Shown here piece by piece: positions 33,457 to 52,449 of a stretch of DNA of 64,000 nucleotides (its first letter is position 1; each line of letters begins with the position of its first letter). The stretch comes from Candidatus Zhuqueibacterota bacterium (GTDB lineage: Bacteria; BS750m-G25). The notes under the pieces were generated by a model. That model saw only the letters and a list, made by a program, of their open reading frames with translations, had not been told where the DNA came from and searched no databases. The position numbers and the translations under genes are program-made. The DNA lies in the NCBI GenBank assembly GCA_016783505.1, contig JADHWK010000005.1, positions 21,935 through 85,934 of the forward strand, read 5' to 3'.

Positions 33457-34344
33457 CTATTTCTTCCATGGTGGCACTTCCGGTAAGAGTGTGTCGAACT
33501 CAGCGATCAGCTCTGATTCGTATTCCGCCGTATATAAACCGTTCAAGAACTTATCAGCGCCCTCTTTGAAGAAAAGTTCCCAAGACCTGTCCTCCTGCCC
33601 GGGATTTATCGGAAAAAAGATGGCTCCATTCGCTTTGGCGGCCTTCATATCACCGGGAGCATCCCCAATCATCAACAGGTGGCCCTCAAGATATTTACCG
33701 TCGGAGGCCAAATGAATGTGCTCCTTTTTGCTTCCCATTTCTTGGCCGGCAATCACACGGGCATATTGAGCAATGTTATGTTCCTGCCATTCCCGACGCA
33801 GTGCCTCGCCTGGGGTCGCGGAACAGACAATAATGTCAGCCCACCGGGAAATCTTCTCTAAGCTCTCGCGCACAAAGGGAAACGGTGGCACCCCATAAAC
33901 CATATCCGCCACAGTGGCATTTACGGCTTCGCTCCATTTTAAGGCCTGTGCCAAAATCGGATCACCGGTTTTCTTCACCTCGGCTTTCAGAGCCGGATTC
34001 CCCAATTTTGTCTCTCGTTCAATCCAGTCGCGCAGGGGCTGGGCAACCGGAATATTGAGATGACGCTTCTGCACATCCGGCCACTCGCGGAGCAGATCGA
34101 AAACCATAATCAGGGCCGGGAAACGATTCACGCCGCGCCATTTTGAGTAGAGGTTAACAAATTCGGCCGCCGCCCGGGCATATTTGGATACCGGCTGCAG
34201 GGTCCAATACTTGATGATATTCGGGATAAAACATTCTTTGTGTTTGATCTCCATCGTATCAAAGGCACATCCATCCGAATCAATCGCAACCAAGAAATCA
34301 TGCCGTGGTTCTAAATCCTTCAATTCAACTTGGGGATCTGACAT
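33457..34344 (-). CDS. HAD-superfamily phosphatase-like hydrolase
   Basis: 295 residues. HAD motif I is VAIDSDGCAFDT, with Asp22 (nucleophile) and Asp24 (acid/base); motif II is probably VCSATPGE; motif IV is LLMIGDAPGDMKAAKANGA. A large helical cap lies between motifs I and II. The substrate is unknown. It ends the carbohydrate operon, 42 bases downstream of the phosphofructokinase, so a sugar phosphate is a reasonable guess. Confidence 0.75.
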   Translation of the reverse strand: MSDPQVELKDLEPRHDFLVAIDSDGCAFDTMEIKHKECFIPNIIKYWTLQPVSKYARAAAEFVNLYSKWRGVNRFPALIMVFDLLREWPDVQKRHLNIPVAQPLRDWIERETKLGNPALKAEVKKTGDPILAQALKWSEAVNATVADMVYGVPPFPFVRESLEKISRWADIIVCSATPGEALRREWQEHNIAQYARVIAGQEMGSKKEHIHLASDGKYLEGHLLMIGDAPGDMKAAKANGAIFFPINPGQEDRSWELFFKEGADKFLNGLYTAEYESELIAEFDTLLPEVPPWKK

Positions 34345-34386: not shown

Positions 34387-35679
34387 CTATTTACGATATG
34401 CTTGAGGTACATATTCTGGCAATTTTTGTTCTGCGAAAATCCTGTCAAACCGCGCAAATCTCTGCAACCCGTTGACAACGGGCACACTCACCCAATCTTC
34501 GCCGATCAATGGGCGGGCATAATGGATAAAATCATCTGTTACGTCAATCTGATTGGGAGCGATCCAATCCTTTGGGAATTTGCGTTCGGAATTGGCCACC
34601 ACGTCCAAGGGTACTTTATCGTAATCCACATTATAAATCAAACCCTGCCGGCGAAGGATAGTGGACATATAGCCAGAGCCGTGTTCGACCGCGATGACCA
34701 CCGCCTTCTGACCTACTTTATAAGCTTCGTCTAAATCCACTGTGGATGCATAAATCGCTGTGTCGCGCTGATCCGTACCAACAACTTGCCCGCGCGCAAC
34801 TCCCCTCGCCTTCAATCCGACTTTATTGAGATGATTGACCACGATCTGCTGCGCGGTAGACATGCTCGAACTAAATTGGGTATGACCGAAAGAATCCTTT
34901 ACTTCACCGACCGTACCGACATCAAAACCTTCACTTACGACAAGGATGACCCGTCCACTTCGCTTAAGCTCATCATTTACATTATCCATTAACTCGGATA
35001 AACTGAGACCGGATTCTGGCATATAGATCTGGAGCGGCATTTCACGTTTGGGGTCTGCTAACCGTACTGCTGCCGGAATAAAGCCAATTTTCCGTCCCAT
35101 TACCTGTATCACAAGAACGGGGTCTGATGGGCAAGAACCCATATTTTCTTCGTTAGCATTTTGGATATTATAGGCCCAGTATCGAGCCACACTACCATAT
35201 CCTGGGGTATGATCAACCAGTTTGAATTCGGAGTCGCCTACATCGTTGTCAATCGTTTTGGCAATCCCCACCGCCACTAGGTCAAAACCTTTTTCGTGAG
35301 CCATTTTCGCTACTTTTTGCGCCGTGTCCATTGAGTCGTTACCGCCGATGTAAAAGAAGTAGCCGATGTTATGTGCTTTGAACACATCAATGATGCGATT
35401 AAAATCCTCTTGCTGATGGCTTTTTAGTTTATAGCGGCAGGTGCCGATGGGACCGGCGGCGGGGGTGGTCCGCAACAAGCGAATTTCCTCTTCTCGCTGG
35501 GCAGAGACATCCAGCAATTCCTCTTTGAGAATGCCTTCTAACCCGTGGTACCCACCGTAAATTTTATCAAATTTATCTGGATACATCCAGCAGGTTTCTA
35601 CAATCCCCCGAAGGGAATTATTGATCACCGGCGATGGACCGCCGGACTGAGCAACGACTACGTTTTTGTCTACTGCCAT
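34387..35679 (-). CDS. pfp: Diphosphate-dependent 6-phosphofructokinase
   Basis: 430 residues from the ATG at 35679 (a TTG two codons earlier is an alternative). GGPSPVINNSLRG and the GGNDSMDT and AKTIDNDVG motifs identify a group A phosphofructokinase. Asp in GGND and Lys before TIDND are the residues that mark PPi rather than ATP as phosphoryl donor. MGRKIGFIPAA and GHTQFSSSMST are further signatures. It interconverts fructose 6-phosphate and fructose 1,6-bisphosphate reversibly in the cytoplasm and would join the pentose phosphate genes upstream to glycolysis. Confidence 0.9.
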   Translation of the reverse strand: MAVDKNVVVAQSGGPSPVINNSLRGIVETCWMYPDKFDKIYGGYHGLEGILKEELLDVSAQREEEIRLLRTTPAAGPIGTCRYKLKSHQQEDFNRIIDVFKAHNIGYFFYIGGNDSMDTAQKVAKMAHEKGFDLVAVGIAKTIDNDVGDSEFKLVDHTPGYGSVARYWAYNIQNANEENMGSCPSDPVLVIQVMGRKIGFIPAAVRLADPKREMPLQIYMPESGLSLSELMDNVNDELKRSGRVILVVSEGFDVGTVGEVKDSFGHTQFSSSMSTAQQIVVNHLNKVGLKARGVARGQVVGTDQRDTAIYASTVDLDEAYKVGQKAVVIAVEHGSGYMSTILRRQGLIYNVDYDKVPLDVVANSERKFPKDWIAPNQIDVTDDFIHYARPLIGEDWVSVPVVNGLQRFARFDRIFAEQKLPEYVPQAYRK

Positions 35680-35708
35680 ACACAAACCCCCAAATTGCTG
35701 CTTTTTAG

Positions 35709-36983
35709 TTACGGCCCGAATGGATCGTCTTTCAAGCGATAGAGCATTTCTCCCGCCCTGGGGACATATAAAACCCCTTCATCCTCATGATTTTTCCAAT
35801 CGTCTACGTTGATCAATTTCGGATCGCAATAGCCAAGATTTATCTTCTTACAAACATCCTCTGGGATTTGCGTAGCTAAAACCACCTTGACCCGCGGCTT
35901 TTCTACGCCGTTCTCGAAAGAGCCAATCCCTTTCACGTGGGTGGAGTGCGCCATCACGCCGCCGGGTATATCTGTGAATCTATCCATTTGTTTGATAAAA
36001 TAGTCGCGAACGTGATAACCGATCTTCTCAATGATTGCCCCATGGGTAACGGATATTTCGGTGATATTTGGCGCATAGATGATTAACTCACCACCGTCAG
36101 CAACCACGGGTTCGAGTTTGTACATGCATTTGCCCCCGGTCCAGAGGTCATCGTACATTTTGGGGGCGCAGGATAAAACCCGATGAAAGGGATGATCCTT
36201 ATAAATAATATGCAATTTGCCTGACAAATCAGCAGCGGAAGCAAACGCTTCCTCCGGAGTCCCGACGAAAAGACCGGCCAGATCATTCCCCTTAACTACT
36301 AGACTCAAACAAATCCGCTCTATAAGTAAAAATGCTGCCGCCTTATCCACCAATTTCCGCACCGGTGTATCCTTGGTGCCGATGATGACCGGGTTGGTGA
36401 TAAGGGCTCCGAACCAATGGAGTATATCAATGATCTCCTGCCCACCAATGCCTGGAAACAGATACTTGTTGCCACCCGAGAATCCCACCACCTCATGGGG
36501 AAAGGTGGGACCAATGATCATGAGCAGGTCATAATCAAAAATCAGTTTATTTATGGTTACATCTACTTTCTGGCGCAGCAGTCCACCGGAGATGTCGGCG
36601 ACCTCATCTTCGCTAATGGTCCCAATGCACCTTAGCTGATCAGGGTCCTTCCAATAATGATTGAAGAATCTCGCTTTGGGATATTTACTGGTACGCTCTT
36701 TCTGGGTAATGCCGACTCGCTCGTTAATCGCCCTGTCGCTCATAGGTGGATGGGTACCAAGAGCGATAAGAAAGTGAAGGGCTTGCACCCGTGCCGCCAG
36801 CAATTTATAGACGACCCGGAACATTGCATCCATAGGGGCGGTGCGGGTGTGATCGGGTATGATGGCCAGAATGCGCCTGTCGTCCAAATGGTTTAGCGAG
36901 AACGCTTGGGCACAGAGATTGAAGACCTGCGCCTCATTCAGCAAATCAGATGGAGAGCCTTTGCCAATAACCATGTGTAACAT
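35709..36983 (-). CDS. LarA-family nickel-pincer-dependent hydroxyacid racemase/epimerase
   Basis: 424 residues. Family motifs: IPDHTRTAP (42-50), ALGTHPPM (74-81), FPHEVVGFSGGNKYLFPGIGG (161-181) and KMYDDLWTGGKCMYKLEPVV near residue 280. His163, Lys173 and His189 have the same spacing as His174, Lys184 (cofactor attachment) and His200 (nickel ligand) of Lactiplantibacillus LarA, so the enzyme should carry the Ni-pincer nucleotide. LarA homologues racemise lactate, malate and other 2-hydroxy acids, and gluconate C2-epimerisation has been reported. Lying directly after gnd and near the fructuronate-reductase-like SDR, a mannonate/gluconate epimerase is the best contextual guess. Cofactor genes larBCE are not in the window. 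Confidence 0.8.
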   Translation of the reverse strand: MLHMVIGKGSPSDLLNEAQVFNLCAQAFSLNHLDDRRILAIIPDHTRTAPMDAMFRVVYKLLAARVQALHFLIALGTHPPMSDRAINERVGITQKERTSKYPKARFFNHYWKDPDQLRCIGTISEDEVADISGGLLRQKVDVTINKLIFDYDLLMIIGPTFPHEVVGFSGGNKYLFPGIGGQEIIDILHWFGALITNPVIIGTKDTPVRKLVDKAAAFLLIERICLSLVVKGNDLAGLFVGTPEEAFASAADLSGKLHIIYKDHPFHRVLSCAPKMYDDLWTGGKCMYKLEPVVADGGELIIYAPNITEISVTHGAIIEKIGYHVRDYFIKQMDRFTDIPGGVMAHSTHVKGIGSFENGVEKPRVKVVLATQIPEDVCKKINLGYCDPKLINVDDWKNHEDEGVLYVPRAGEMLYRLKDDPFGP

Positions 36984-37002
36984 TATAGGGAAAAGCCAAC
37001 CG

Positions 37003-38424
37003 CTAATCTTTCAACCACTCGGTATGGAAAAACTGACCGCGCGGTTTGTCAACGCGTTCATAGGTGTGAGCGCCGAAATAGTCACGCTGGGCCTGCAGCA
37101 GGTTCGCCGGCAGTTGGGCGCTACGGTAGCCGTCATAATAGGCCAACGCACTGCTGAAAGCCGGAACCGGCAGACCTAAGGCAACCGCTTGGGCAACCAC
37201 CTTACGCCAGGCATCCTGGTTCGCCTCCACAGCGGATTTAAAATAGGAATCCAGCAAAAGATTCGGCAGATCCGGCTGCCTGTCAAACGCTTCTTTAATC
37301 TTGTCTAGGAATTGTGCGCGGATAATACAACCGTTGCGCCATAACAACGCTATCTCGCCGAACTTCAGATCCCAGTGGTACTCCTCGGCCGCGGCCCGCA
37401 TCAATTGATAGCCCTGGGCGTAAGAGCAGATCTTGGAAGCATACAGTGCCTTGCGGATAATCTCGATAAATTCTACTTTATCACCTTCGAACTTGGCATC
37501 GGGGCTGGATAAAACCTTTGATGCGGCCACACGCTCTTCCTTTATAGCACTTAAAGCACGGGCAAACACGGCCTCTGCAATCGTCTGCGAGGGGACACCC
37601 AGATCCAAAGCGGCCTGGCTGGCCCATTTGCCCGTACCTTTCTGCCCAGCCGTATCCAGGATAACATGGATCATCGGTTTACCGGTTTCGGGGTCCTTTT
37701 TAGCCATAATGTCACTGGTGATTTGAATCAGGTAGCTGTTTAATTCCCCTTTATTCCATTCTGCAAAAACATCGTACATTTCCCCTGGGGTTAATCCGAG
37801 GGCCTGTTCCATTATAAAGTATGACTCACAGATCATCTGCATGTCGCCGTACTCAATCCCATTGTGGACCATTTTAACGAAATGCCCAGCGCCGTTGTTC
37901 CCGATCCATTCACAGCAGGGGGAGCCATCAGCAACCTTGGCAGCAATGGATTGAAAGATCGTTTTCACGTGGGGCCAGGCCTCGGGGCTTCCCCCAGGCA
38001 TAATAGAGGGGCCCTTTAATGCCCCCTCTTCGCCACCGGAAACGCCGGTGCCGATAAATAAATAACCTTTTTCTTTCAAATAGTTGGTCCTGCGTATGGA
38101 ATCCGGAAAATGGCTGTTACCACCGTCAATGATAATATCACCTGGTTCCAAATGCGGCAGAAGCAGCTCGATAAAATCATCCACGGGCTTACCGGCTTTG
38201 ACCATAAGCATGGTCTTCCGCGGTTTTTTAAGACTTGCGGCCAACTCCTCAATGTTGTGACAACCCTTAATGTTTTTACCTTTTGCACGGCCTTCAATGA
38301 ATTTATCCACTTTGCTGACGGTGCGATTGAAGACGGCTACCGAAAAACCATGGTTCTCTATATTGAGAACAAGATTTTCGCCCATTACGGCAAGACCAAT
38401 CAGTCCGATGTCATAAGTGCCCAT
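37003..38424 (-). CDS. gnd: 6-phosphogluconate dehydrogenase, decarboxylating
   Basis: 473 residues, full length. [20 protein letters not shown] is the NADP-binding N-terminus; [36 protein letters not shown] and [21 protein letters not shown] are strict family signatures. The enzyme converts 6-phosphogluconate to ribulose 5-phosphate and CO2. It has a GGGAGG ribosome site and lies between the SDR and larA-like genes rather than with zwf, suggesting it serves a catabolic route that delivers gluconate. Confidence 0.96.
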
Positions 38425-38440
38425 TCTGTTTTCCTCCCTG

Positions 38441-39220
38441 TTAAATGGTCATGGCGGTAAAACCGCCGTCCACGCGAATAACGGCACCGGTAACGAAAGA
38501 AGAAGCCTTTTCTGAGGCCAACCAGAGTGTGGCTCCCACCAATTCCTCGGGTTCACCAAATCGAGCCATGGGAGTATGGCGGAAAATAGCCTCGGTGCGC
38601 TCCTTGGTCAGCAGTTTGCGATTCTGCTCAGCCGGGAAAAACCCTGGGGCAATGGCATTCACCCGAACCCTATGGGGCGCCCATTCCCGGGCCAGAAACT
38701 GGGTCAGATTGTTGACACCTGCTTTGGAAATACCGTATGTAAACACCTTGGAAAGCGGTGGTCCCGATGAGGCTGAGGAAATGTTAATGATACTCCCCCC
38801 TTCGCCCTGTTCAATCATTCTTTTCCCAAAAATCTGACAGGCTAAAAACATGCTCTTCAGGTTCACGCTGAGGATCTTTTCCCACTCCCCTTCGGTAATC
38901 TCGAAAAAGGGAGTAGCTGAATTGATGCCCGGGGCATTGATCAGGATATTTACCCGGCCTAACTCAGTGACGATTTTCTCCAGGGCCTTCATAATATCCT
39001 CTTTTATGGAGGCATCCAGTTGGATCGCCAGCGCCCTGACACCTACGGCAGAAATTTCCTCGGCCTTTTTCCTGGCACTCTCGACGTTAAGATCCAAGAC
39101 GGCAATATCGGCCCCTGCCCTAGCCAGCCCATCTGCTATGGCCCCAGCAAGCACCCCACCACCCCCTATAATCGCTGCTACCTTATTCTTTAATCCAAAA
39201 AGTGATTCAAGAAATTCCAT
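38441..39220 (-). CDS. SDR-family oxidoreductase, fructuronate reductase-like
   Basis: 259 residues, classical short-chain dehydrogenase: cofactor loop [13 protein letters not shown] (17-29), the NAG-like NAPG motif at 95-98, catalytic Ser149, Tyr162 and Lys166 (TYGISKAG), and [12 protein letters not shown] after the catalytic core. The LKNKVA-x-I-x-GGGGVL start and APGFFP stretch are typical of SDRs annotated as D-mannonate oxidoreductase or gluconate 5-dehydrogenase. Next to uxaE, reduction of fructuronate to mannonate is the likely reaction; substrate specificity is inferred from context. Confidence 0.8.
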
Positions 39221-39526
39221 ATTTAATCCCCTCTTATGAACTTAAGGGCTACGCCCCAACTGGAATAATGGGCAATAAATATATCTGGAGATCAGGGTAT
39301 CAGTGGGAAGAATATCAGTGGATCAGAACATTCGGAACGATCTTGGGACAGGATAAAATCTGATATTCTTGTAATCTGATTCCCTTCCTATCCCCAAGCT
39401 TCGGGACTGATATTCTGATTTACTTTGAAGCCCTTTCTTAGAGATTCAAAGATGTTAAGTTACCATCCGCAATCATGAAGTCATGCCTGAGGCAGATCCG
39501 CCTATGGCGTGACCTGCGGCTACATC
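39221..39526. other. Intergenic region with repeat DNA, no gene
   Basis: 306 bases between the SDR and uxaE. It contains an imperfect TCCCCAAGCTTCGGGA palindrome (39391-39406), several GATATTCTGAT/ATCAG words and a second copy of the TGCCTGAGGCAGATCCGCC repeat (39483-39501). No terminator with a U-run on the - strand was seen, so transcription may continue. Confidence 0.55.
39483..39510. repeat. TGCCTGAGGCAGATCCGCC repeat, copy 2
   Basis: Identical over 19 bases to the copy at 24477-24502, then diverges (TATGGCGTGAC here, TTGGGCGGA there). Confidence 0.6.
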
Positions 39527-41086
39527 CTACAGAAAAGGTATAATATGTTTTCTCAAATGCTTCGATAGATTCTCATAGTGATCTTCTTCGTTTGCAACCA
39601 AACACTCCTTGATTTGGTCCCGAAACAGATAATTCCCCTTAGTATCCTTTGCGGTCAGAACAGAACCGAAGGCAACATGCAACACCTGACGGGCATCGTC
39701 CTGTTCAAAAAGAGCCAACAGTTGATCGTTCGAACATTCCGAACTCAATGGGACATCATCCACCTTGGCTGAGACATGATAGGATGCTTTGTCCAACGGA
39801 TATCTTTCCCGTGAGAAATCAAAGATCTCGCGGAACAGATCCGGCTCTTTTGAACAGATGGTATACAATGCCACCAGGTAGCTCGTCCCGGCGGTTTTCA
39901 CATGAACATACCCTTGCTTAAGCTTTCCGATAATTTCATACACACTGAATTTATCACTACCGGAATGAAGGCTGATTTTATAAGGACCCCATTGCTGAGC
40001 GATCAGCACATGTTTTTTATACTCCTCCGCAAAGCGATCGAGATCCCCCCTGTAGTCAACCCCTTTTTCAAAATCCCCGATGAAACGCGGGGCCAGACTC
40101 ACAAATTTGATTCCCAATCTGATCATTTCTCCGACGAAAAAAAGGTGCTCAAAGGCGGTGGTGACAGAATCTGTCTCGTCTACTGAGACTTCCAATTCAA
40201 AGGGACTCCCGGAAGACCTTTCCACCAGATATTTGTACATCTTATAGGTGTGTGCAATCGCCTTCCCATATTTAGCCATGGCACGGTAAATTTCTTCCCG
40301 ATCGGGATGGATGACGAATTCATCATCAAGCACAAAATCCCGGTCATCATATCTTCGCAGGCAATCATCAGAGGTATCTTCGAGCGTGGACCACGGGATT
40401 TTCTCCACCCTGGCCATAAGCTCCCGGCTCGAATATGAATCGGCCTGGTTGTCCACGTGATCCCCGGGATCGATGGTATACATGGTGTAACCGGCTTGGA
40501 CCATCAAGTCGATGTCCTCTGACGTTTTGAGATGATCGGCATCGGCCCCGAAACCCTCCATATATCCCTCCTGGAAAACAGCCCAGGTGGCGGCATTCAT
40601 CACCTCCTCGGGACTACGATGGGTCCGCTTAAGCTCCCGAATGGACTGCTGGGCCAGCACAGGTTTTATCCCTGTTCCTACAACCGCCCGGATGTGTCCC
40701 GGTCCCGCCAGGCCCAATCTGTCGCCCAGCCCGATTGCATTCCCAAGACCGAGCACCTTCGGTCGGGTAAAAGGGAAAAAATTACGTATGGTCACCGCAT
40801 TGGAATGACTTATGGAACATTTTTTTAGAAATATGTTTTCCTTATCCAAGATCTCGGCTAAAATCTCCCCATCAAAATCCATGAATTGAGAGCTTTTATC
40901 CCCACCGAATAGTATCCAAAGACACTTTTCTTCCTCAGAGACACCGACAAAAAAATAATCCTCCCCGATTTTGGTAATTGACCGGGGATAAACGTCAACC
41001 TTTACCTTATCAGTAAACCTAATTTTTTGCCTTTGGGAAGGGGCACCTTTCTTTAGTCCTTCAAGCAGGGCTTTGTAATCCCCCAT
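39527..41086 (-). CDS. uxaE: Tagaturonate/fructuronate epimerase
   Basis: 519 residues, with a GGAGGAT ribosome site. The protein matches the UxaE family known from Thermotoga, which interconverts D-tagaturonate and D-fructuronate by C4 epimerisation. Recognisable stretches include GLGDRLGLAGPGHIRAV, RSPEEVMNAATWAVFQEGY, GFGADADHLKT, TIDPGDHVDN, ELEVSVDETDS and KISLHSGSDKFSVYEIIGK, rich in candidate metal ligands (His, Asp, Glu). It brings galacturonate-derived tagaturonate into the fructuronate branch, served by the SDR gene downstream. Confidence 0.87.
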   Translation of the reverse strand: MGDYKALLEGLKKGAPSQRQKIRFTDKVKVDVYPRSITKIGEDYFFVGVSEEEKCLWILFGGDKSSQFMDFDGEILAEILDKENIFLKKCSISHSNAVTIRNFFPFTRPKVLGLGNAIGLGDRLGLAGPGHIRAVVGTGIKPVLAQQSIRELKRTHRSPEEVMNAATWAVFQEGYMEGFGADADHLKTSEDIDLMVQAGYTMYTIDPGDHVDNQADSYSSRELMARVEKIPWSTLEDTSDDCLRRYDDRDFVLDDEFVIHPDREEIYRAMAKYGKAIAHTYKMYKYLVERSSGSPFELEVSVDETDSVTTAFEHLFFVGEMIRLGIKFVSLAPRFIGDFEKGVDYRGDLDRFAEEYKKHVLIAQQWGPYKISLHSGSDKFSVYEIIGKLKQGYVHVKTAGTSYLVALYTICSKEPDLFREIFDFSRERYPLDKASYHVSAKVDDVPLSSECSNDQLLALFEQDDARQVLHVAFGSVLTAKDTKGNYLFRDQIKECLVANEEDHYENLSKHLRKHIIPFL

Positions 41087-41109
41087 TGATTTTCATCCTC
41101 CAAAAACGA

Positions 41110-43116
41110 TTACCCACCATTCGACCAAGCCTTGATTTTCTCTGAAACCGCCTCACCCGTAAACCCGAACTTCTCAACCAGCATCCCTAACGGTGCTGAA
41201 GCGCCAAATCGGTCCAGGCTGACAATCAAAATGGGAGATTCGGTTATGCCATCCCAACCATGCGGAACTCCTGCTTCGATTACTGCTAACCGACAGTTTC
41301 TCCGGGGAATTACTGACTCCCGGTAGCTTTTCGATTGCCCCCTGAAGATTTCCAGGGAGGGCATGGAGACCACTCGAACCGAGCAACCCTCGCCTTCAAG
41401 AATCTTTTGGCTTTCTAAAGCCAAATGAACTTCCGACCCGGTCGCCACCAGAACGATGTACGGCCCTTCCTTTTTTTCTTCAGAGAGCACATACCCCCCC
41501 TTCTGAATGAGGAACGGATCGAAATTAGCCGGCCTTGGCAGGGTGGGAACATTCTGCCTCGTCAGGATCAAGGCCGATGGGCCGCTGCGATTCTTCAGTG
41601 CGTAGGTCCAGGCTATGGCCACTTCTAGACCATCGGCAGGGCGAATAACGGTAAGATTAGGTATCGCCCTCAAGGCCGCTAACTGCTCTACCGGCTGATG
41701 CGTCGGCCCATCCTCGCCCACAAAGATACTATCGTGAGTAAAAACGTAGATGACCTGAACCCCCATCATGGCAGCCAGGCGGATAGAAGGCCGCATATAG
41801 TCCGAAAAGACCAGAAATGTAGACCCGTATGGAATCCAACTGCCGTACAGTGCCAGTCCGTTGAGAACCGCTCCCATAGCATGTTCCCTAACACCGAAAT
41901 GAAAATTCCGGCCCCCGAAACGACCTTGACCAATCGAAGGGGAATCCTCGATCAAGGTTTTGGTTGATGGGGCCAGATCCGCCGATCCTCCACAGAGGCT
42001 GGGAACTAACTCAGCAGCTTTTTGCAAGATTTTACCCGAAATCACTCGTGTTGCATTCGGCTTGGTCGGAATACTACGAATAAGTTCCTCATCAATGGAA
42101 TTAGGAACCCGTTTGGCAAACATTTCACCCCATTGCTCTGCCAATTTCGGGTTTCTCTTTTGCCAGCTTCTGAAATTATCCTGCCACCTATTGTATTCTT
42201 TTTTCAACTCTTCGACTCGACAATAAAACAGTTCCCTTACTTCATCCGGTACGTAGAAATTGGGCCGAGTAGGCCAACCTAAGTTACGCTTCGTCTCTAA
42301 AACCTCCTCAACCCCCAAAGGTGCTCCGTGGGATTCTTCACTATCCTGCATATTGGGACTTCCATATGCGATATGGGTTTTGGCTATGATGAGCGAAGGT
42401 CGATCGTTTACTTCAATTCCCTTCTCGATGGCGCTTGCGACATCATCATGGTTATGCCCGTCAATTTGGTTCGTATGCCAACCGTAGGCCTCAAAACGCC
42501 TCCCCACATCCTCAGAAAAACTGAGGTTTGTATCTCCTTCAATCGTAATGTGGTTGTCGTCGTAAATATAGATGATGTTTCCCAGACCGAGGTGTCCAGC
42601 CATGGAGGCTGCTTCTGAAGCTACTCCTTCCATCAAGTCACCGTCACTGACAATCCCGTATATACGATGATCTAACAGTGAGAAGCCATTGGTATTGAAC
42701 CGTTCAGCCATCATTTTGGCACCAATGGCCATACCCACACCGTTGGCAAACCCCTGGCCCAGTGGACCGGTCGTCGTTTCGACACCAGGAAGACAATTAT
42801 ATTCGGGGTGACCCGGGGTTCGGCTCCCCCATTGTCGGAAGGACTTCAGATCCTCTATCAAAACATCGTAACCGCTCAGATAGAGCAATGCATAGAGAAG
42901 CATTGATCCGTGTCCAGCGGAGAGAACAAACCGATCCCGGTTTGGCCAAATGGGATCTTTGGGGTTAAATTTTAAAAAACGGTTCCAGAGGACAAATGCG
43001 CAATCGGCCATACCCATTGGCATGCCGGGGTGACCCGAATTTGCTTTTTGAACACCATCCACGGCCAGCATCCGAATCGTATTCACAGCCAACTGTGCTA
43101 ACCGTGGAGTTACCAT
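41110..43116 (-). CDS. tkt: Transketolase
   Basis: 668 residues from the ATG at 43116 (a TTG four codons upstream, with GGGGA before it, is possible). ThDP enzyme of the non-oxidative pentose phosphate pathway. Signatures: KANSGHPGMPMGMAD, GPLGQGFANGVGMAIG, the ThDP/Mg motif SDGDLMEGVASEAASMAGHLGL, and VFTHDSIFVGEDGPTHQPVEQL. Intact and full length. Together with gnd and the PPi-phosphofructokinase it would process ribulose 5-phosphate-derived sugars. It ends 23 bases before uxaE. Confidence 0.96.
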   Translation of the reverse strand: MVTPRLAQLAVNTIRMLAVDGVQKANSGHPGMPMGMADCAFVLWNRFLKFNPKDPIWPNRDRFVLSAGHGSMLLYALLYLSGYDVLIEDLKSFRQWGSRTPGHPEYNCLPGVETTTGPLGQGFANGVGMAIGAKMMAERFNTNGFSLLDHRIYGIVSDGDLMEGVASEAASMAGHLGLGNIIYIYDDNHITIEGDTNLSFSEDVGRRFEAYGWHTNQIDGHNHDDVASAIEKGIEVNDRPSLIIAKTHIAYGSPNMQDSEESHGAPLGVEEVLETKRNLGWPTRPNFYVPDEVRELFYCRVEELKKEYNRWQDNFRSWQKRNPKLAEQWGEMFAKRVPNSIDEELIRSIPTKPNATRVISGKILQKAAELVPSLCGGSADLAPSTKTLIEDSPSIGQGRFGGRNFHFGVREHAMGAVLNGLALYGSWIPYGSTFLVFSDYMRPSIRLAAMMGVQVIYVFTHDSIFVGEDGPTHQPVEQLAALRAIPNLTVIRPADGLEVAIAWTYALKNRSGPSALILTRQNVPTLPRPANFDPFLIQKGGYVLSEEKKEGPYIVLVATGSEVHLALESQKILEGEGCSVRVVSMPSLEIFRGQSKSYRESVIPRRNCRLAVIEAGVPHGWDGITESPILIVSLDRFGASAPLGMLVEKFGFTGEAVSEKIKAWSNGG

Positions 43117-43221: not shown

Positions 43222-44256
43222 TCAGGGTGAAACATCTGGCCATTCATGCTTAGGATAGAACTGGTAATTAAGAAAACATTGGTTGATAACCGCATTAGGC
43301 CATCTACTTTTAATAACCATTCTTTTCTTCTTTATTATTTTAGAGAGATCATTATACTTCGAAAAATCGGTATATTTTTCCCAGCTTCCAGAAAACTTCT
43401 TCGGCCAGGATTTTGCTAAGGGATGGTCAGGCATCCTTGTAGTGACTTTATGTCTATCATATCTCGTCCTCATATCTTTTATCCGAGCCACTTCTTCTAT
43501 ATGAGCATATTTTACCGAAATTTTTTCCAAAGGAATGTTCTCCCACCCAACCGGCAAGGAGCCATGGCCTCCCCATTGAACATTGATCCTTGCCCTCTGA
43601 TTATGAGCATTGGCATCTTCTATGGCTTCTTTTGTAGCCAGAATCGCTCGATGAAAGTAAGTATACACCCCTTTCACTTTACCTGATTGGGGATCGTATT
43701 CAATCCAGACTTTCTCGTGATCAGTGGGATCATTATCCCCGGGATAGTCAATATCATCATCCCAGAAGAAACTATATTCGATAAGCGGTTTATCGGGATG
43801 AATAACCACCGTCAAATCTTCCAAGGGGAAGAATTCTTTGGGGTTGGTGTATACCCTGGGAGCATACTTTAGTATTAAACCAAATTCCTCAGCGGTTACA
43901 GGTTGGGGTGGATCCAATTCCAAGACTTTGGCATATTCTATGCTAGCCTCTTTCAATCTCCGCTCCAGGTGATAGACATACCCCAAGCGGTTGTGGTAAT
44001 AGGGGTCCTGGGGGGCAAGTTGGACTGCTTTTTGATAGTCTGCAATGGCTGCGGCATGATTCTCCGGCTTGTTCTCTTCTTCAGCGCGGAAAAGATCCAG
44101 ATAGACCTCTCCCCTTTCAAAGTAGAATCTAGCCAAATCCTGAACCGAGGAGAAAAATCGGCCCTTATCTGTTAAGTTCGATCTACCTTGAGCCTCAACT
44201 TTGGCGATGCCACAAAACAGTAAGAGGATTGATAGTAATCCTGTCAGCTTTCTCAT
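43222..44256 (-). CDS. Secreted TPR protein (intact copy of a partly duplicated gene)
   Basis: 344 residues from the ATG at 44256: signal peptide (MRKLTGLLSILLLFCGIAKVEAQ), about two TPR motifs (residues 30-115; AAIADYQKAVQLAPQDPYYHNRLGYVYH, ERRLKEASIEYAKVLELDP), then an uncharacterised ~220-residue domain with VWIEYDPQSGKVKGVYTYFH, WGGHGSLPVGW and His-rich stretches. The frame continues upstream without a stop into a decayed 91-codon copy of the same gene, so translation could start at 44529 instead. The C-terminal domain resembles nothing I can name. Confidence 0.65.
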   Translation of the reverse strand: MRKLTGLLSILLLFCGIAKVEAQGRSNLTDKGRFFSSVQDLARFYFERGEVYLDLFRAEEENKPENHAAAIADYQKAVQLAPQDPYYHNRLGYVYHLERRLKEASIEYAKVLELDPPQPVTAEEFGLILKYAPRVYTNPKEFFPLEDLTVVIHPDKPLIEYSFFWDDDIDYPGDNDPTDHEKVWIEYDPQSGKVKGVYTYFHRAILATKEAIEDANAHNQRARINVQWGGHGSLPVGWENIPLEKISVKYAHIEEVARIKDMRTRYDRHKVTTRMPDHPLAKSWPKKFSGSWEKYTDFSKYNDLSKIIKKKRMVIKSRWPNAVINQCFLNYQFYPKHEWPDVSP

Positions 44257-44529
44257 TTTTAGAGCCCTCCTTTTTGCTTCAAAGCCGTTATCCCTTGGAA
44301 TCAGGATAGGATTTTTGTCATATTTCACGAATGCCCTGGGTGGATCCAATTCCAAGACCTTGTCATATTCTATGCTAGCCTCTTTCAATCTCCGCTCCAG
44401 GCGATAGACATACCCCACCGAGGAGAAAAATTGGCCCTCGTCTGTTAAGTTTGATCTACTTTGAGCCTCAACTTTGGCGACGCCACAAAACAGTAAGATG
44501 ATTGATAGTAATCCTGTCGGCCTTCTCAT
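44257..44529 (-). pseudogene. Decayed tandem copy of the TPR gene fused to a GH130-like leader
   Basis: Exactly 273 bases (91 codons) lie between the start of this copy and that of the intact gene, in the same frame. It repeats the signal peptide (MRRPTGLLSIILLFCGVAKVEAQ) and SRSNLTDEGQFFSSV, jumps across a deletion of ~50 residues to GYVYRLERRLKEASIEYDKVLELDPP, then runs into AFVKYDKNPILIPRDNGFEA, which looks like a GH130 N-terminus, before the intact copy begins. It is best read as a whole-gene tandem duplication collapsed by two deletions. Confidence 0.7.
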
Positions 44530-45471: not shown

Positions 45472-46494
45472 TTATCCTGATACTTTTCTTAGGGTAAGCT
45501 TACTGGCAAAATGGCAAGCAACCCAATGTTCAGATCCAACTTCTCCCCATTTAGGTTTTTCATTTTTGCATATGTCTTTAGCATATTTACAGCGAGGATG
45601 AAAATAGCATCCAGAGGGTGGATTGGAGGGGTCAGCTATTTCACCGGGGAGGATAATTCGCTCCATTCTCAGGCGAGGATCGGGCTTGGGTAGAGCGGAT
45701 AAGAGGGCTTCTGAGTAAGGGTGCTTTGGATTAAGAAAAAATTCTTCGGTTTCAGCCAGCTCAACAATCTTCCCCACATACATCACCGCCACCCGATCAG
45801 AGATATGTTCAATTACGCTCAAATCATGGGAGATGAAGAGATAAGTGAGATTAAATTCTTTTTGTAAATCCTGCAAGAGATTTAATGTTTGGGCTTGGAC
45901 AGAAACGTCCAGGGCAGAAACTGGTTCATCGGCCACAATAAATTTAGGATTGAGAGCCAGTGCTCGGGCAATTCCGATGCGCTGGCGTTGTCCACCACTA
46001 AAAGCATGGGGATAGCGTCTTAAATGCCTTACATCTAATCCCACAGTTTTAACTAAATCCTTAACTCTATTTCTTAACTCTACGCCTTTAGCGATTTTAT
46101 TAACTAATAAGGGTTCTCCGATAATGTCTAATACTGTCATTCTGGAATCTAAGGAAGAATAAGGATCCTGAAAAATTAATTGCATATCTTTCCTAATTGA
46201 TCTTAGCTCTTCCTTGTTTAGTCGAGTAATATCTACCATTTTACTATCACCCATTTTAAAAAGAACCTCTCCCCCTGTAGGCTCAATAGCACGCAGGATA
46301 CATCTGCCGATAGTAGTCTTACCGCAACCACTTTCCCCGACCAATCCCAAAGTTTCTCCTTCCGGGACATAGAGATTAACCCCATCAACTGCTTTTACAT
46401 AACCGACTATTTTTTTCCAGAATCCCTTCTCAATGGGGAAATATTTTTTAAGATTTTTGACTTCTAAGAGTGGTTTTTTATCTTCTTTCGGCAT
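45472..46494 (-). CDS. Oligopeptide/oligosaccharide ABC transporter ATP-binding protein (OppF/DppF type)
   Basis: 340 residues. Walker [10 protein letters not shown], signature [15 protein letters not shown], Walker [13 protein letters not shown], and the C-terminal oligo_HPY extension with its Cys-rich [15 protein letters not shown]. One of the two ATPases of a cluster-C (Dpp/Opp) importer. Starts two bases after the partner ATPase gene. In this context the transporter probably imports oligosaccharides rather than peptides, since GH130 phosphorylases adjoin the operon. Confidence 0.9.
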
Positions 46495-46496
46495 GA

Positions 46497-47507
46497 TTAC
46501 CTATACAGGACACATTCAACTTTATGCCCATTTTCTAATTCGATTAAAGGAGGAGCATCAATATTGCAGATACCTTCTTTAGCTTGGGGGCAGCGGGGAT
46601 AAAATGTGCATCCCCGAGGAAGTCCCAGGGGAAGGGGCACTGTCCCTTTGATAGAGTCAAGGCGTGCCCTTACCTTTCTTCCCACTCTGGGGATAGATTT
46701 CAATAATCTGCTGGTATAGGGATGTTTAGGATTATGGAAAATATCCTCTACACTGCCATATTCTACCACTTTACCCAAATACATAACTGCTACTTCATCT
46801 GATATCTCTGCAATGACCCCTAAATTATGGGTAATATAAATAATTGACATTCCAAATTCCTTTTGCAAATCTTTCATTAGTTCCAAAATTTGAGCCTGCA
46901 CGGTGACATCTAAGGCAGTGGTAGGCTCATCGGCAATAAGCAGGCTGGGATTACAGGATAGAGCCATAGCAATCATTGCTCTTTGGCGCAAGCCACCGGA
47001 AAGCTGATGGGGGTAATCATCTATTCTGTGAGATGGATCAGGAATACCAACTTTATCCAGCATTTCCTTGGCCAGTCCTCTGGCTTCAGTCTTATTTAGT
47101 TTCCGATGTAGAAGAATAGTTTCCATAATTTGATTTCCTATAGTATGCAAAGGGGAAAGGGAAGTCATTGGCTCTTGAAATATCATTGTTATCTGGTTAC
47201 CCCTAATGTTTCTAATTTCTTTCCCAAAAGGATCTAATTCAGCAAGGTCAACGTTTTTCTCATTCTCTTGGTGGAATAATATTTCCCCTTCTGTTTTCCC
47301 AGGAGAGGGAACTATCCTCAGGATAGACTGAGCAGTAACGGATTTGCCACAGCCTGATTCACCGACTATGCCTAACGTTTTCCCCCTGTCTATTTTAAAG
47401 CTGACCCCGTCCACTGCCTTCAGGATGCCTTCATCTAAATAAAAATACGTCCTAAGGTCTTTTATTTCCAGCAAGGGGTCATCTTCGCTTTTCAATTTTG
47501 ATCTCAT
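46497..47507 (-). CDS. Oligopeptide/oligosaccharide ABC transporter ATP-binding protein (OppD/DppD type)
   Basis: 336 residues. Walker [10 protein letters not shown], signature [15 protein letters not shown], Walker [13 protein letters not shown], and a C-terminal [16 protein letters not shown] oligo_HPY segment. Its start overlaps the preceding permease stop by one base (TAATG), so the two are coupled. Confidence 0.9.
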
Positions 47508-48619
47508 TATTTATAAGGATCAGCCGCATCTCGCAGGCCATCCCCTAAAAAATTGAAAGCAAGTACTGTAACGATAACAAAAAGGCCGGGAATTAAAAGC
47601 CAGGGATGAAGGACAACGGTGCGGACATTTTGTGCATCCCGTAAAAGCACTCCCCAGCTAACCACCGGTGGTTGAAGCCCAAGGCCAAGAAAACTTAAAG
47701 AGGTTTCCCCTAAAATCATACCGGGTATGGCTAAGGTTATGTTCACGATGAGGTATGACAAAAATGAGGGAAGGAGATGTCTGGTTATTATTCGGCCATC
47801 AGTTGCCCCGATAATTTTCGCTGCCATAACAAAATCCTCTTGCCTTAGTTCCAAAAGTTTCCCCCTGACTACCCGGGCTAAACCGCACCATCCTACAATA
47901 GAGAGGATAATGGTAATTCCAAAGTAAACCTTAATTGGCGGCCAATGGGGTGGTAAAGCTGCGCTCAATGCCATCCAGAGGGGAATAGTTGGTATGGACA
48001 TTAAAAATTCGATAACTCTCTGGATAACCATATCAGCAGTTCCGCCAAAATATCCGGAGATTCCCCCAAGGGCACATCCTAAGATAAAACTGAGAGCTAC
48101 TCCTACTAATCCGATGGATAAAGAAATCCGGGCTGCATGGAGATTACGGGAGAACAAATCTCTGCCTAATTTGTCGGTTCCAAAAAGAAATATTGTCCCG
48201 GGCTCTTTCACCCCGAGAAGATGGAGATCTGTGGGGAACAAGTTCCAGAGTTTATACTTATCACCGCGAATAAAGAAATAGATGGGATACTTTTTAGTTC
48301 TATCCTCGGAATATGTTCTGCGGAGGGTTACTGGATTGATCTTTCTTTTTAATCCATAAACAAACGGTCGAAGATGAAATCCTTCTTCATCAAAGAAATG
48401 AATCCTCTGCGGTGGGGCGTGGATATATTTTGTATGGCGTTTATATATGTCCTGGGTAGAAAAGAACCCACAGAATATGGCTACAAAGTAAAAAATAAAT
48501 AATACAATGGCGCCAAAGATGGCTAACTTATGTTTCTTAAACTTTCGCCACATAAGTTGCCATTGTGTAGCAATATAAAACTTTTCTTCAGCGGTGATCT
48601 TATCTTGCCTGTTTTTCAT
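47507..48619 (-). CDS. ABC transporter permease (OppC/DppC type)
   Basis: 370 residues, longer than most OppC proteins because of a ~110-residue periplasmic insertion after the first helix (about 60-150; YIHAPPQRIHFFDEEGFHLR...LFGTDKLGRDLFSR). The remaining five helices and the EAA-type loop (MAAKIIGATDGRIITRHLLPS) are conventional. This extended first loop is familiar from Dpp-type transporters of oligosaccharides in Thermotoga-like bacteria. It overlaps the OppB-type gene by 20 bases. Confidence 0.9.
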   Translation of the reverse strand: MKNRQDKITAEEKFYIATQWQLMWRKFKKHKLAIFGAIVLFIFYFVAIFCGFFSTQDIYKRHTKYIHAPPQRIHFFDEEGFHLRPFVYGLKRKINPVTLRRTYSEDRTKKYPIYFFIRGDKYKLWNLFPTDLHLLGVKEPGTIFLFGTDKLGRDLFSRNLHAARISLSIGLVGVALSFILGCALGGISGYFGGTADMVIQRVIEFLMSIPTIPLWMALSAALPPHWPPIKVYFGITIILSIVGWCGLARVVRGKLLELRQEDFVMAAKIIGATDGRIITRHLLPSFLSYLIVNITLAIPGMILGETSLSFLGLGLQPPVVSWGVLLRDAQNVRTVVLHPWLLIPGLFVIVTVLAFNFLGDGLRDAADPYK

Positions 48620-49595
48620 AGCGGATCCGGGGATCTAACCAAACCAACAAAATATCGGAGATAAAGGTTCCAATTACGGTCAGAAAGGTTAAAATCATAA
48701 TCGAACTACCGGCTAAATACATATCCTGATTCACCAATGCCCGGAAAAGTAGAGGCCCTATTGTAGGAAGGCCAAGTACTATAGCCACAATAGTCTGGCC
48801 AGAAATGATACGGGGAAGGGTCCAGCCGATGGTACTAATTATGGGATTAATAGCTACTCTTACTGGATATTTGAACAAGAGCCTTCGTTCTGAGACCCCT
48901 TTGGCTCGAGCAGTGATGACATATTGCTTCTGAAGTTCGTCTAATAAACATCCTCGCATAACCCGGATAAGTCCAGCAGTACCAGCCATACCAATAACTA
49001 CTACGGGAATCGGCAGATGTTTTAGTAAATCTATGAATTTAGCCCCACTCCAGGGAGCTAACTGATACTGGGGCGAAAAAAGGCCACCAATACTGAGACC
49101 AAAATATCTGTAAGAAACAAACATTAATATTAGCGCAAGAAGGAAACGAGGGGTAGCCAGACCAATAAAACCAATAACCGTAAAGGCATAATCACCAACG
49201 GAGTATTGATGGGTAGCTGAGTAAATACCGATGGGGATAGCCAACAGATAGGTAAAAATGAGCGTAAAAAGGGACACGGTTACCGTTAAAGGTAGGCGTT
49301 CCAATATTAAATCTTTTACTGGCCGGTTCCATTCGAAAGATTTTCCGAAATTGCCATGCAGCATTTTCCACATCCATTGGCAATACTGAAGATGTATTGG
49401 TAAATCCAGGTCATACTGTTTTCTCAACGCGGCAATTTCCGCTTCGTCAACAATCTGGCCGCTTGCCTTCAATTTCATTATATAGGAAGTCAAAAAGTCT
49501 CCGGGGGGAAGCTGAATAATGACGAATGCAGTAATTGATACTACTAATAAGACAATGATCATGTAAAAAAAGCGACGAAGGACATAAGATAGCAT
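48600..49595 (-). CDS. ABC transporter permease (OppB/DppB type)
   Basis: 331 residues with the six-helix OppB layout: first helix at 8-30, periplasmic loop (PPGDFLTSYIMKLKASGQIVDEAEIAALRKQYDLDLP), and the EAA loop ITARAKGVSERRLLFKYPVR. It pairs with the OppC-type permease to form the membrane channel. It follows the substrate-binding protein by 47 bases. Confidence 0.9.
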   Translation of the reverse strand: MLSYVLRRFFYMIIVLLVVSITAFVIIQLPPGDFLTSYIMKLKASGQIVDEAEIAALRKQYDLDLPIHLQYCQWMWKMLHGNFGKSFEWNRPVKDLILERLPLTVTVSLFTLIFTYLLAIPIGIYSATHQYSVGDYAFTVIGFIGLATPRFLLALILMFVSYRYFGLSIGGLFSPQYQLAPWSGAKFIDLLKHLPIPVVVIGMAGTAGLIRVMRGCLLDELQKQYVITARAKGVSERRLLFKYPVRVAINPIISTIGWTLPRIISGQTIVAIVLGLPTIGPLLFRALVNQDMYLAGSSIMILTFLTVIGTFISDILLVWLDPRIRYEKQAR

Positions 49596-49642
49596 TTTAT
49601 TTCTCTTTTATCCTTTGCTAGAACCCGTAAGGACCAAAGGTC

Positions 49643-51556
49643 TTACGGGGTGAAGAAGAATTGAGCTGGCTCAAAAGCTATCCAGAAATTGCTATCCCAA
49701 CTCCAGTATCCTTGGGTAGGAACATTCTTGAGATTATTCTTTACTACCGCAGGCCAGGGAGACATGCCTACGGTACCGATATAGATCAGTTGCTTGGCAT
49801 GGAAGTCAAATATCTTCTGAGCCAGGCGGGTATACTCTTCTTTAGTTCTCGCAGATGCCCAGTCTTCCATGTCTTTATAGAATTCCTTCATCTCTTCGGG
49901 GGGTTCTTCTCCGTCTTTCCCTTCTGTATTAAACCATAACTCCCACTGCTTGGCCCAACCCCAGCCACCGTCAAAGCTGAGTAATCGCCCTGAAAGAGGC
50001 TGGCCATATCCATAAAGCTCGGTAACACAGTCTAAATGCCATAGACCTATATCTAAAACGCCGGCATCTTTGCGTTTGGCATAATAACTACGATCCTCGG
50101 GTTTAAGGGTTATCTTTATTCCGATCTCTTCCCAATATTCTTTTACCAGCTCGCAAATTGCTGTTTTCGGTCCCTCTCCGGCATAATACTCAATCAAAAT
50201 GTTTAGAGGTTTACCATCGGGTCTTAGACGATACTTTCGTCCTTTGTCCCATTTTAGACCCATCTTATCCAAGAGTTCATGGGCTCTTTGTGGGTCATAG
50301 GTCGCGTATGCTTTGGCCCATTCCTCTTTATAGTAGCTGCAAGTAGGAAGGACAGTTGCCTGGCGAGGGGTAGCCAGACCAAAGCAGACAACCTCGTTGA
50401 TTTCCTCCCGGTTAATAGCTAAGGAGAGTGCTTGCCGGAATCTAACATCCTGCATGATCTTCCGAAGTAGGGGGTCGGGATGATTTTGATTGGGTGCAAA
50501 GGCAACTGCCGCTCCGATAGCGCTCTTCCACATAAAGGCATGATAATTCCCCTTTTTTTCATTTTCCTTAAAAAGGGGATAATCTCCCAGCAATAGATTA
50601 AAAGAAACGATATCTATCTCTCCAGCAGTCACTTTCATGTTCAATATTTCCTGATTCTCATACAGTCGGTCAACGATCCGATCAATGTAAGGGAGTTGAT
50701 TGCCCGCAGTATCCACCTGCCAGAAGTAAGGGTTCCGTTCCCATATCTGGTAGGTAGATGCGACTTTCTTTATCACATACGCATCAAGAGTAGGAAGATC
50801 AAGATCCAGGTTCCATAGGTCATAACCAGGATTTCTGACAGCTTTGAATAATTCCCACCAACGAGTATAACCTGCTTTTTTTGCCAGCTCGTTTGCTTCT
50901 GGGTTATATTTTATATGATACTTTTTTAAATAATGTTTTGGATCATACAGCTTTGTCTGTGCAGAGTTCCAACTGTGGCCAAGCAGAGTTACTACCGGAT
51001 AGGGCACAGCAAAGTGTATTTGTAAGATATAATTGTCTACTTTTTCAAATTTTGCTAACCCCCCGCCCGGTTTCCAGAATTTCTTCACAATGGGGGAAAG
51101 CTCCTTGTTCAGCATGTAATCTTCCCACCAGAAGAGAATATCATCAACAGTGAAAGGAACACCATCTGACCATTTCAACCCCTTTCTTAAGTAGATAGTC
51201 AGCGTCTTTTTATCCTCAGAAACTTCGTAATCCTTGGCTATGTCAGGAATTATTTCTGTGCAGTCCCCAGAATACCTGAATAAGCCATGATGCCGGAGTG
51301 TTCTTCCTTCGATGGCATTAAACGGGGATAAGTCTGCTGTATTTAATGTGCCCCCATACCGCCCAATTTCCTCCAACGGCTCTATTACTCTCGGCTCTTC
51401 GGGAAGTCTTTCTTCTACTGGGGGGAGTTTACCTGCGGCAACTTTTGTCCTGAGCATGGGAGCTTCATTATACCTTGCCGCTGCTGGGGTTGCTCCCAGC
51501 AGCAATATTGCTCCGATCAACCCCATAAGTTTATTGAACTTAATGGGTAACCCCAT
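49643..51556 (-). CDS. Extracellular solute-binding protein, family 5
   Basis: 637 residues from the ATG at 51556 (GTG codons at 51562 and 51559 are alternatives). A Sec signal peptide (KLMGLIGAILLLGATPAAA) lacks a lipobox cysteine, so the protein is probably free in the periplasm. The body has the family 5 features: YGGTLNTADLSPFN, GLKWSDGVPFTVDDILFWWED and VRFRQALSLAINREEIN. Family 5 binds peptides, nickel or oligosaccharides. It lies 11 bases after a GH130 gene, so a beta-mannoside or uronate-containing oligosaccharide is the favoured ligand. Confidence 0.88.
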   Translation of the reverse strand: MGLPIKFNKLMGLIGAILLLGATPAAARYNEAPMLRTKVAAGKLPPVEERLPEEPRVIEPLEEIGRYGGTLNTADLSPFNAIEGRTLRHHGLFRYSGDCTEIIPDIAKDYEVSEDKKTLTIYLRKGLKWSDGVPFTVDDILFWWEDYMLNKELSPIVKKFWKPGGGLAKFEKVDNYILQIHFAVPYPVVTLLGHSWNSAQTKLYDPKHYLKKYHIKYNPEANELAKKAGYTRWWELFKAVRNPGYDLWNLDLDLPTLDAYVIKKVASTYQIWERNPYFWQVDTAGNQLPYIDRIVDRLYENQEILNMKVTAGEIDIVSFNLLLGDYPLFKENEKKGNYHAFMWKSAIGAAVAFAPNQNHPDPLLRKIMQDVRFRQALSLAINREEINEVVCFGLATPRQATVLPTCSYYKEEWAKAYATYDPQRAHELLDKMGLKWDKGRKYRLRPDGKPLNILIEYYAGEGPKTAICELVKEYWEEIGIKITLKPEDRSYYAKRKDAGVLDIGLWHLDCVTELYGYGQPLSGRLLSFDGGWGWAKQWELWFNTEGKDGEEPPEEMKEFYKDMEDWASARTKEEYTRLAQKIFDFHAKQLIYIGTVGMSPWPAVVKNNLKNVPTQGYWSWDSNFWIAFEPAQFFFTP

Positions 51557-51567
51557 CACCACTGATT

Positions 51568-52449
51568 TTAGTCTAATTTTTCCACCTCACTGCTAATGGC
51601 TACACAGATAACTTTATCACCGCCACCATAGTAAACATAAAAAGAATCATCTTTCTCAATGGCTCCACAAGTGAACACCACATTGGGGACATCGCCATAT
51701 AACTCATAATCTTCTTCGGGCTCAAGGATGGGCTCGTCCTGGCGGGCTAATAATTTGGAGGGATCGTTTAAATCAAATAACGCTACACCCAATCTATACG
51801 CTTTTTTTTCATCAACCCCATGATAAAACTCCAACCAACCTTTTTCTGTTTTTATCGGGGGTGCACCGGCACCAATTTTCTTACAATCCCACGAATTTCC
51901 CCTGGGCCTCATCACAATTTTATGGCCATACCAATCCTTGAGATTTTCAGAGTAAGCAATCCACATATCTGGTGGGATTCTGTGAAACATGACATACTTC
52001 CCATTTATTTTTTCGGGGAACAGCACCGCATCTTTGTTTTCCATGTCAGGTAAAATAACGCCGTGTCGCTTGTAAGTCTTAAAGTCAGTAGTCGAAGAAA
52101 GAGCAACACGGTTGCCAGACCCGGACCATGCACGATTTGAAAGAGCCGTGTATGTAATATAAAACCTATCATTGATATGGGTTATTCTTGGATCTTCACA
52201 GCCGAAATGTTCGTAGTCTTCTTGGGGTTCAAATACTGGACTGTTAAATCGTTTAAAATTCAAACCGTCTTCACTAACAGCGTGACCAAACCTGGAGATA
52301 TAAGTATCATACTCACCAATTGCGCGATATAGGAGATGGATTAATCCACCCGCATACACAGCAGCACAATTGAAGACTGCTCCGGATTCCCACTTGTTCT
52401 CTTTACCGGGTCTTAGAATGGGATTTCCCTTATAACGTCTCAGCTTCAT
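51568..52449 (-). CDS. GH130-family glycoside phosphorylase
   Basis: 293 residues, five-bladed beta-propeller family acting mainly on beta-mannosides by phosphorolysis. MKLRRYKGNPILRPG, ESGAVFNCAAVY, the CEDPRIT motif with Asp86 (expected proton donor), KIGAGAPPIKTEKGWLEFYHGVD and EPILEPEEDYELYGDVPNVVFTCG are typical. No signal peptide, so it is cytoplasmic and would act on imported oligosaccharides. It shares layout and many motifs with the next upstream gene (52572-53546), so the two are paralogues. Confidence 0.9.
   Translation of the reverse strand: MKLRRYKGNPILRPGKENKWESGAVFNCAAVYAGGLIHLLYRAIGEYDTYISRFGHAVSEDGLNFKRFNSPVFEPQEDYEHFGCEDPRITHINDRFYITYTALSNRAWSGSGNRVALSSTTDFKTYKRHGVILPDMENKDAVLFPEKINGKYVMFHRIPPDMWIAYSENLKDWYGHKIVMRPRGNSWDCKKIGAGAPPIKTEKGWLEFYHGVDEKKAYRLGVALFDLNDPSKLLARQDEPILEPEEDYELYGDVPNVVFTCGAIEKDDSFYVYYGGGDKVICVAISSEVEKLD

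Follow-up and report, generated by a model that had tools for sequence, protein, structure and literature searches.

The UxaR galacturonate locus of Thermotoga maritima brings gnd, uxaE, uxaD, gntE and gntK together in one regulon (PMC3750489). For this organism a mannonate-to-gluconate step was proposed by Rodionova et al. 2012, as reported in papers that cite that work (PMC6978723, PMC7583248), and the mannonate/gluconate epimerase step was later demonstrated in vitro, the epimerase being assayed in 2020; T. maritima GntE2 epimerised D-mannonate with a measured kcat of 197 per s and a Km of 17 mM (PMC7583248). Cell extracts of Lactobacillus suebicus contain mannonate kinase and 6-phosphomannonate 2-epimerase activities, the genes of which were unassigned in 2020 (PMC6978723). 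Here we analysed a stretch of 64,000 nucleotides from the Candidatus Zhuqueibacterota bacterium BS750m-G25 (GenBank assembly GCA_016783505.1, contig JADHWK010000005.1, positions 21,935 to 85,934 of the forward strand), referred to below as the window. It holds a block of genes, arranged around a larA homologue, for the probable conversion of sugar acids from plants or algae into pentose phosphate by way of an epimerase of the LarA type, which uses a nickel cofactor. The route itself is already published, and the new part is a module in which genes for a phosphofructokinase (PFK) family protein and a HAD phosphatase accompany larA. Our literature searches turned up neither a gluconate kinase from the PFK family nor a HAD-PFK-LarA module.

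The block contains six intact open reading frames (ORFs) on the minus strand, with the transcription order tkt, uxaE, a short-chain dehydrogenase/reductase (SDR) gene, gnd, larA and PFK. Order and place agree with the initial annotation, in which the end given for tkt (43116) is an in-frame ATG within an ORF that reaches 43128. The six genes hold as members of the block, and two corrections apply: the HAD gene (33457-34344), 42 bp downstream of PFK, had been overlooked as the seventh gene, and tkt is a rare companion, neighbouring only 2 of 101 related larA loci (L035 is among the loci with an adjacent tkt). The gaps within the six-gene block measure 16-23 bp, except for 306 bp between SDR and uxaE, and because of this gap one or two transcription units are possible. 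UxaE gave a full-length match to PF16257 (residues 33-515), and the SDRs of the larA loci L031, L037 and L095 were 75-77% identical to that of the window. Single-sequence E. coli profiles detected no homologue of uxuA, kdgK, eda or gntK, which had been described as absent from the block, anywhere in the window.

In the LarA homologue every catalytic and nickel-pincer nucleotide (NPN)-binding residue is present, namely D44, R47, H78, H163, K173, H189 and K285, the equivalents of LarA D72, R75, H108, H174, K184, H200 and K298. These seven were invariant in 20 homologues, and the ligands His163, Lys173 and His189 stand at exactly the positions read initially. At the specificity positions (LarA F175/F176/W358/T359) the protein carries E164, V165, A345 and H346, and this E-V-A-H pocket set marks D-gluconate 2-epimerases (GntE) (PMC11770544). 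The best PDB match was 4NAR, the T. maritima GntE2 (E=1e-67), and the two proteins share 34.5% of residues across 403 aligned columns. A tree of 109 homologues put the window LarA into a large lineage apart from GntE2 and LarAH18, where its neighbours came from Neomarinimicrobiota, Calditrichota and Latescibacterota. No NCBIfam LarA model reached its cut-off for this protein; NF052594, the model for the putative hexonate epimerase LarAH18, gave 183 bits, below its cut-off of 500. The pocket and its best relative support a predicted function as mannonate/gluconate 2-epimerase. Because of the LarA residues, the E-V-A-H signature and GntE2 as the best solved relative, a route from mannonate to gluconate and on to Gnd is well supported.

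From the gene identities we infer each reaction in the source organism. UxaE would convert tagaturonate into fructuronate, which the SDR would reduce to mannonate, and the LarA-type enzyme would epimerise mannonate at C2 to gluconate. A kinase, for which the PFK-family gene beside larA is the best candidate, would then yield 6-phosphogluconate, and Gnd would decarboxylate this to ribulose 5-phosphate, to be carried into glycolysis by transketolase and the remaining pathway steps. We consider it likely that hexuronates are catabolised in this way, by a mannonate/gluconate epimerase that joins the oxidative pentose phosphate pathway; this judgement concerns the epimerase route, and the roles of the kinase and the HAD protein are weighed separately below. 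The initial annotation had already proposed LarA as a mannonate/gluconate epimerase in the series UxaE, SDR, LarA, kinase and Gnd, a proposal strengthened by the GntE pocket match and by the fuller gene sets of loci L164 and L095. Its whole route was right in outline and was not new; that the route had been published was left unmentioned there.

A different order of steps, in which mannonate is first phosphorylated by PFK or another kinase and 6-phosphomannonate is then epimerised by the LarA homologue, giving 6-phosphogluconate, is in our view improbable. The activities in L. suebicus are real (PMC6978723), the window clade shares only 34% identity with GntE2, the enzyme that was assayed, and the gene order is compatible with either sequence of steps; however, the LarA pocket signature is that of enzymes assayed on free mannonate, and no phosphate-binding feature was noted, although none was looked for.

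To place the block among its relatives, we collected loci from 290 genomes, used 386 genomes for HAD and PFK, and scanned 84,980 species genomes, taking the best 80 loci. Most surveyed loci come from metagenome assemblies, and all p-values given here are without correction for shared ancestry. Among the 101 loci with a LarA of the window type, genes within 8 kb included SDR in 61, gnd in 44, HAD in 30, PFK in 21, uxaE in 19, uxaC in 11 and tkt in 2. The block is not a chance arrangement, as the same genes recur together across phyla. Fuller sets are TRAP-UxaC-UxaE-SDR-Gnd-LarA-HAD in L095, TRAP-UxaE-SDR-Gnd-LarA-PfkB with UxaC nearby in L105, and transporter-UxaC-SDR-LarA-PfkB-Gnd in L164. A divergent relative of UxaE (about 416 aa where measured, about 160 bits on the uxaE profile) replaces UxaE in the UxaC-bearing loci L095, L105, L115 and L166. 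At L035, a rhamnogalacturonan-lyase-like protein and KduI adjoin the block, neighbours pointing to pectin-type substrates at that locus. IolB-type (5-deoxy-glucuronate isomerase) or KduI genes adjoin the block in L042, L043, L044, L089-L091 and L035, where no UxaC was seen; they may provide the uronate isomerase step.

The set of HAD, PFK and gnd was found in at least seven phyla and with three LarA lineages. Besides the window lineage, these are the GntE2 lineage (L047, and L048, which reads uxaE-SDR-larA-PFK-HAD and lacks gnd in the stretch read, its LarA grouping with GntE2) and LarAH18 (L089-L091), the LarA of L090 scoring 621 bits on NF052594 against the cut-off of 500. Judged from gene content, the sharing of one module by three lineages lends support to the published conjecture that LarAH18, too, epimerises hexonates, and it supplies a pathway context for a group in which hexonate activity was only hypothesised. 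It also bears on the suggestion that the LarA homologue of the window acts on another hexonate or an aldarate, so that the block is not a mannonate-to-gluconate route at all. For C. glutamicum GntE1, the Km measured with mannonate is very high and the native substrate may differ (PMC7583248), and several close relatives lack UxaC and uxaE. Nevertheless, we regard such a substrate as quite unlikely, given how often larA is accompanied by gnd, whose product requires 6-phosphogluconate, and by the SDR and uxaE genes, together with the one module common to the three lineages.

Some results weigh against the epimerase route. The top model for the SDR among 222 was PRK08277, 'D-mannonate oxidoreductase', at 271.6 bits, 9 below its cut-off of 281. 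The window genome, which is 59.9% complete, yielded no uxaC, no larC and no larE over the cut-off in searches that did not take in LarB. Neither uxuA nor a GntK (TIGR01313) over the cut-off nor an FGGY kinase was found in this genome. Because the genome is so incomplete, the missing uxaC, uxuA, gntK, FGGY kinase, larC and larE are weak evidence. LarC and LarE were also both absent, with LarB again not searched, from genomes G044, G053, G124 and G192, which are 96-99% complete and hold the loci L032, L035, L044 and L048. The joint absence of LarC and LarE had p=0.0004, and the LarA proteins of these four genomes, like that of the window genome, keep every NPN-binding residue. With both genes absent from near-complete genomes whose epimerase looks intact, one may ask how the NPN cofactor is obtained.

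The PFKs of these clusters formed one clade (support 100/99), sister to the pyrophosphate (PPi)-dependent PFKs 3hno and 3k2q; the L195 row, which was counted as a cluster PFK in the tree, is a motif-search false positive. Such a PFK was present in 14 of 386 genomes and located in the cluster in 12 of the 14. All 13 cluster-PFK genomes of the 290-genome set encode a LarA homologue, compared with 27 of 290 overall (hypergeometric p=1.6e-15, uncorrected for phylogeny). At least one further PFK was encoded in 12 of 12 cluster-PFK genomes checked, and the window genome has three more. Positions are given in the established E. coli PfkA numbering. Position 162 (Arg in E. coli PfkA, Lys in 3k2q and 3hno) is Pro in all cluster PFKs and position 249 is Thr in place of His/Tyr, with the catalytic TIDND loop and the PPi-type residues retained. 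In L048, PFK-HAD occupies the place that gntK has in T. maritima, and loci without a cluster PFK can have FGGY, GntK or PfkB beside larA. On these sequence comparisons, the cluster PFK is probably not the general glycolytic enzyme. The separate clade, the extra paralogue, the occurrence only with LarA, the changed 6-phosphate site and the gntK position led us to propose it, tentatively, as the pathway kinase: it could be a gluconate (or mannonate) kinase that uses PPi, in which case a PPi-PFK group member would have been re-specialised for an unphosphorylated sugar acid. The initial annotation's statements that the kinase is not in the block and that the PFK, as Pfp, is a link to glycolysis have both become doubtful, since the PFK may be that kinase itself.

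Several observations count against this role. The equivalents of R243 and R252, two of the four ligands of the fructose 6-phosphate (F6P) phosphate, are kept, and the protein scores above the cut-off of the PPi-PFK model PRK14072. Avoidance between PFK and recognised kinases beside larA had the direction expected for a kinase role but was not significant (0/15 vs 13/88 within 1.5 kb, several distances having been tried; p=0.21) and is not taken as proof, L042 has both a PFK and a recognised kinase within 2.5 kb, and at many larA-gnd loci no PFK and no obvious kinase was seen, which leaves room for a kinase encoded elsewhere. With the same epimerase route, the PFK would then be an ordinary PPi-phosphofructokinase passing F6P into glycolysis, and gluconate would be phosphorylated by an unlinked ATP enzyme. 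The PRK14072 match, the retained TIDND and PPi motifs, and a tkt in the block that suggests pentose-to-hexose flux all favour this explanation. It is set against the extra paralogue in all 12 genomes, the confinement of cluster PFKs to LarA genomes, their altered 6-phosphate site, and, for the unlinked kinase, the lack of a GntK over the cut-off or an FGGY kinase in the 60% complete window genome; we hold it possible, with some doubt. PPi-PFKs can also use sedoheptulose 7-phosphate (S7P). A PFK acting on S7P downstream of Gnd could, with tkt and aldolase, replace transaldolase, and a neighbouring tkt is present both in the window and in L035. This role is very unlikely because transaldolase-family genes are common in cluster-PFK genomes: they occur in the window genome and in G026, G037, G044, G053, G135, G192, G217 and G273, which make up most of them, and are absent from G066, G074 and G277. 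Moreover, tkt is seldom in the cluster.

The HAD protein was assigned by fold to the general C1-cap class, a class that names no substrate. Its AlphaFold model (pLDDT 96) matched AlnB, beta-phosphoglucomutase and phosphoglycolate phosphatases with Z of 16-18, and its sequence had no match in the PDB. The motifs D22xD24, S175xT177, K206, G227D228 and D232 were invariant in 36 homologues. The HAD gene is also found beside gnd where larA is not close by (L096, L100, L102), and a role for HAD as the kinase itself was set aside in view of this company. 4-Phosphoerythronate is an inhibitor of Gnd, and B. subtilis has a phosphatase that disposes of it (PMC6449344). The HAD protein might be a repair phosphatase that shields Gnd, with 4-phosphoerythronate as one conceivable substrate, a role that we consider rather doubtful. 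A family of PdxB-related 2-hydroxyacid dehydrogenases adjoins larA in about a dozen loci other than the window, among them L036, L090, L110, L133, L139, L142, L150, L165, L170 and L176. It was scored in L036 only, where the gene reads as PdxB, 4-phosphoerythronate dehydrogenase (452 bits, cut-off 434).

For PFK and HAD taken jointly, and with the same reserve as for the kinase alone, cluster PFKs could be PPi-dependent gluconate/mannonate 6-kinases that replace GntK across many phyla, with the HAD protein as a repair phosphatase guarding Gnd. If the kinase proposal is true, the cluster-PFK clade is misannotated as glycolytic, and in many uncultured phyla PPi instead of ATP drives the LarA shortcut that leads from uronates to pentose phosphate. 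The conserved module also supplies a candidate for a step of the unassigned mannonate-kinase type.

The coordinates of the block and its surroundings are listed below. Next to the block, the window carries ABC transporter genes, two GH130-like genes, an MFS transporter and a PfkB-like sugar kinase, and 45472-60818 looks like a mannoside-use region adjoining the uronate block. Between them, the start of a TPR protein, a signal-peptide-like segment, is present as two tandem copies, and a short inserted stretch, KYDKNPILIP, is similar to the beginnings of GH130 proteins; this looks like a recent rearrangement.

Table 1. Features of the larA gene block and neighbouring regions, in window coordinates.
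Feature	Position	Strand	Basis or remark
HAD phosphatase, 295 aa, C1-cap beta-phosphoglucomutase/phosphoglycolate-phosphatase-like	33457..34344	-	HAD_2 24 bits
PFK-family phosphotransferase, 432 aa	34387..35685	-	PRK14072 375.6 bits, cut-off 273; PPi-type motifs GGNDS, KTIDND
larA homologue, predicted GntE-like hexonate 2-epimerase, 424 aa	35709..36983	-	Lar_N PF09861 73 bits and residue signature
gnd, decarboxylating 6-phosphogluconate dehydrogenase, 473 aa	37003..38424	-	TIGR00873 763.6 bits, cut-off 426.7
SDR, probable fructuronate reductase / D-mannonate oxidoreductase, 259 aa	38441..39220	-	PRK08277 272 bits
Intergenic gap SDR/uxaE, 306 bp	39221..39526		Sole long gap of the block; possible promoter region
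uxaE, tagaturonate/fructuronate epimerase, 519 aa	39527..41086	-	PF16257 556 bits; PDB 9lhu E=1e-115
tkt, transketolase, 672 aa	41110..43128	-	TIGR00232 819 bits, cut-off 682; in-frame ATG at 43116 as alternative start
TPR protein	43222..44529		Tandem duplication at the start
ABC transporter genes, peptide/oligosaccharide-type	45472..51562		
Two GH130-like genes	51568..53558		First matches Pfam GH130
MFS transporter	57391..58728		
PfkB-like sugar kinase	59922..60818		

Compared with known systems, the block is most like the T. maritima UxaR locus, which likewise has UxaE, SDR, a LarA-type epimerase and Gnd in one locus and for which the same route from tagaturonate to ribulose 5-phosphate is inferred. 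It differs in having PFK and HAD where T. maritima has gntK, in its tkt, and in an epimerase of a different GntE lineage (34% identity). With GntE2 (LarAH20, 4NAR) and the D-gluconate 2-epimerases of the LarA superfamily, the window LarA has the catalytic and NPN residues and the E, A and H of the pocket in common, and its V is as in the GntE consensus, whereas its lineage is separate from both GntE2 and LarAH18. The PFK resembles the PRK14072 PPi-PFKs (3k2q, 3hno) in fold family, PPi-type motifs and the TIDND/TVDND catalytic loop, and differs from them in belonging to a clade with Pro162 and Thr249 that is tied to LarA and is an extra gene wherever checked. The galacturonate pathway of L. suebicus also goes from mannonate to 6-phosphogluconate by C2 epimerisation and phosphorylation, followed by Gnd, but there the kinase acts first as reported, the enzymes are known from activities only, and the pathway feeds phosphoketolase (PMC6978723). 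With the canonical isomerase pathway (UxuA, KdgK, Eda) the proposed route would have the steps to mannonate in common, and it would proceed from there without dehydration to 2-keto-3-deoxygluconate.

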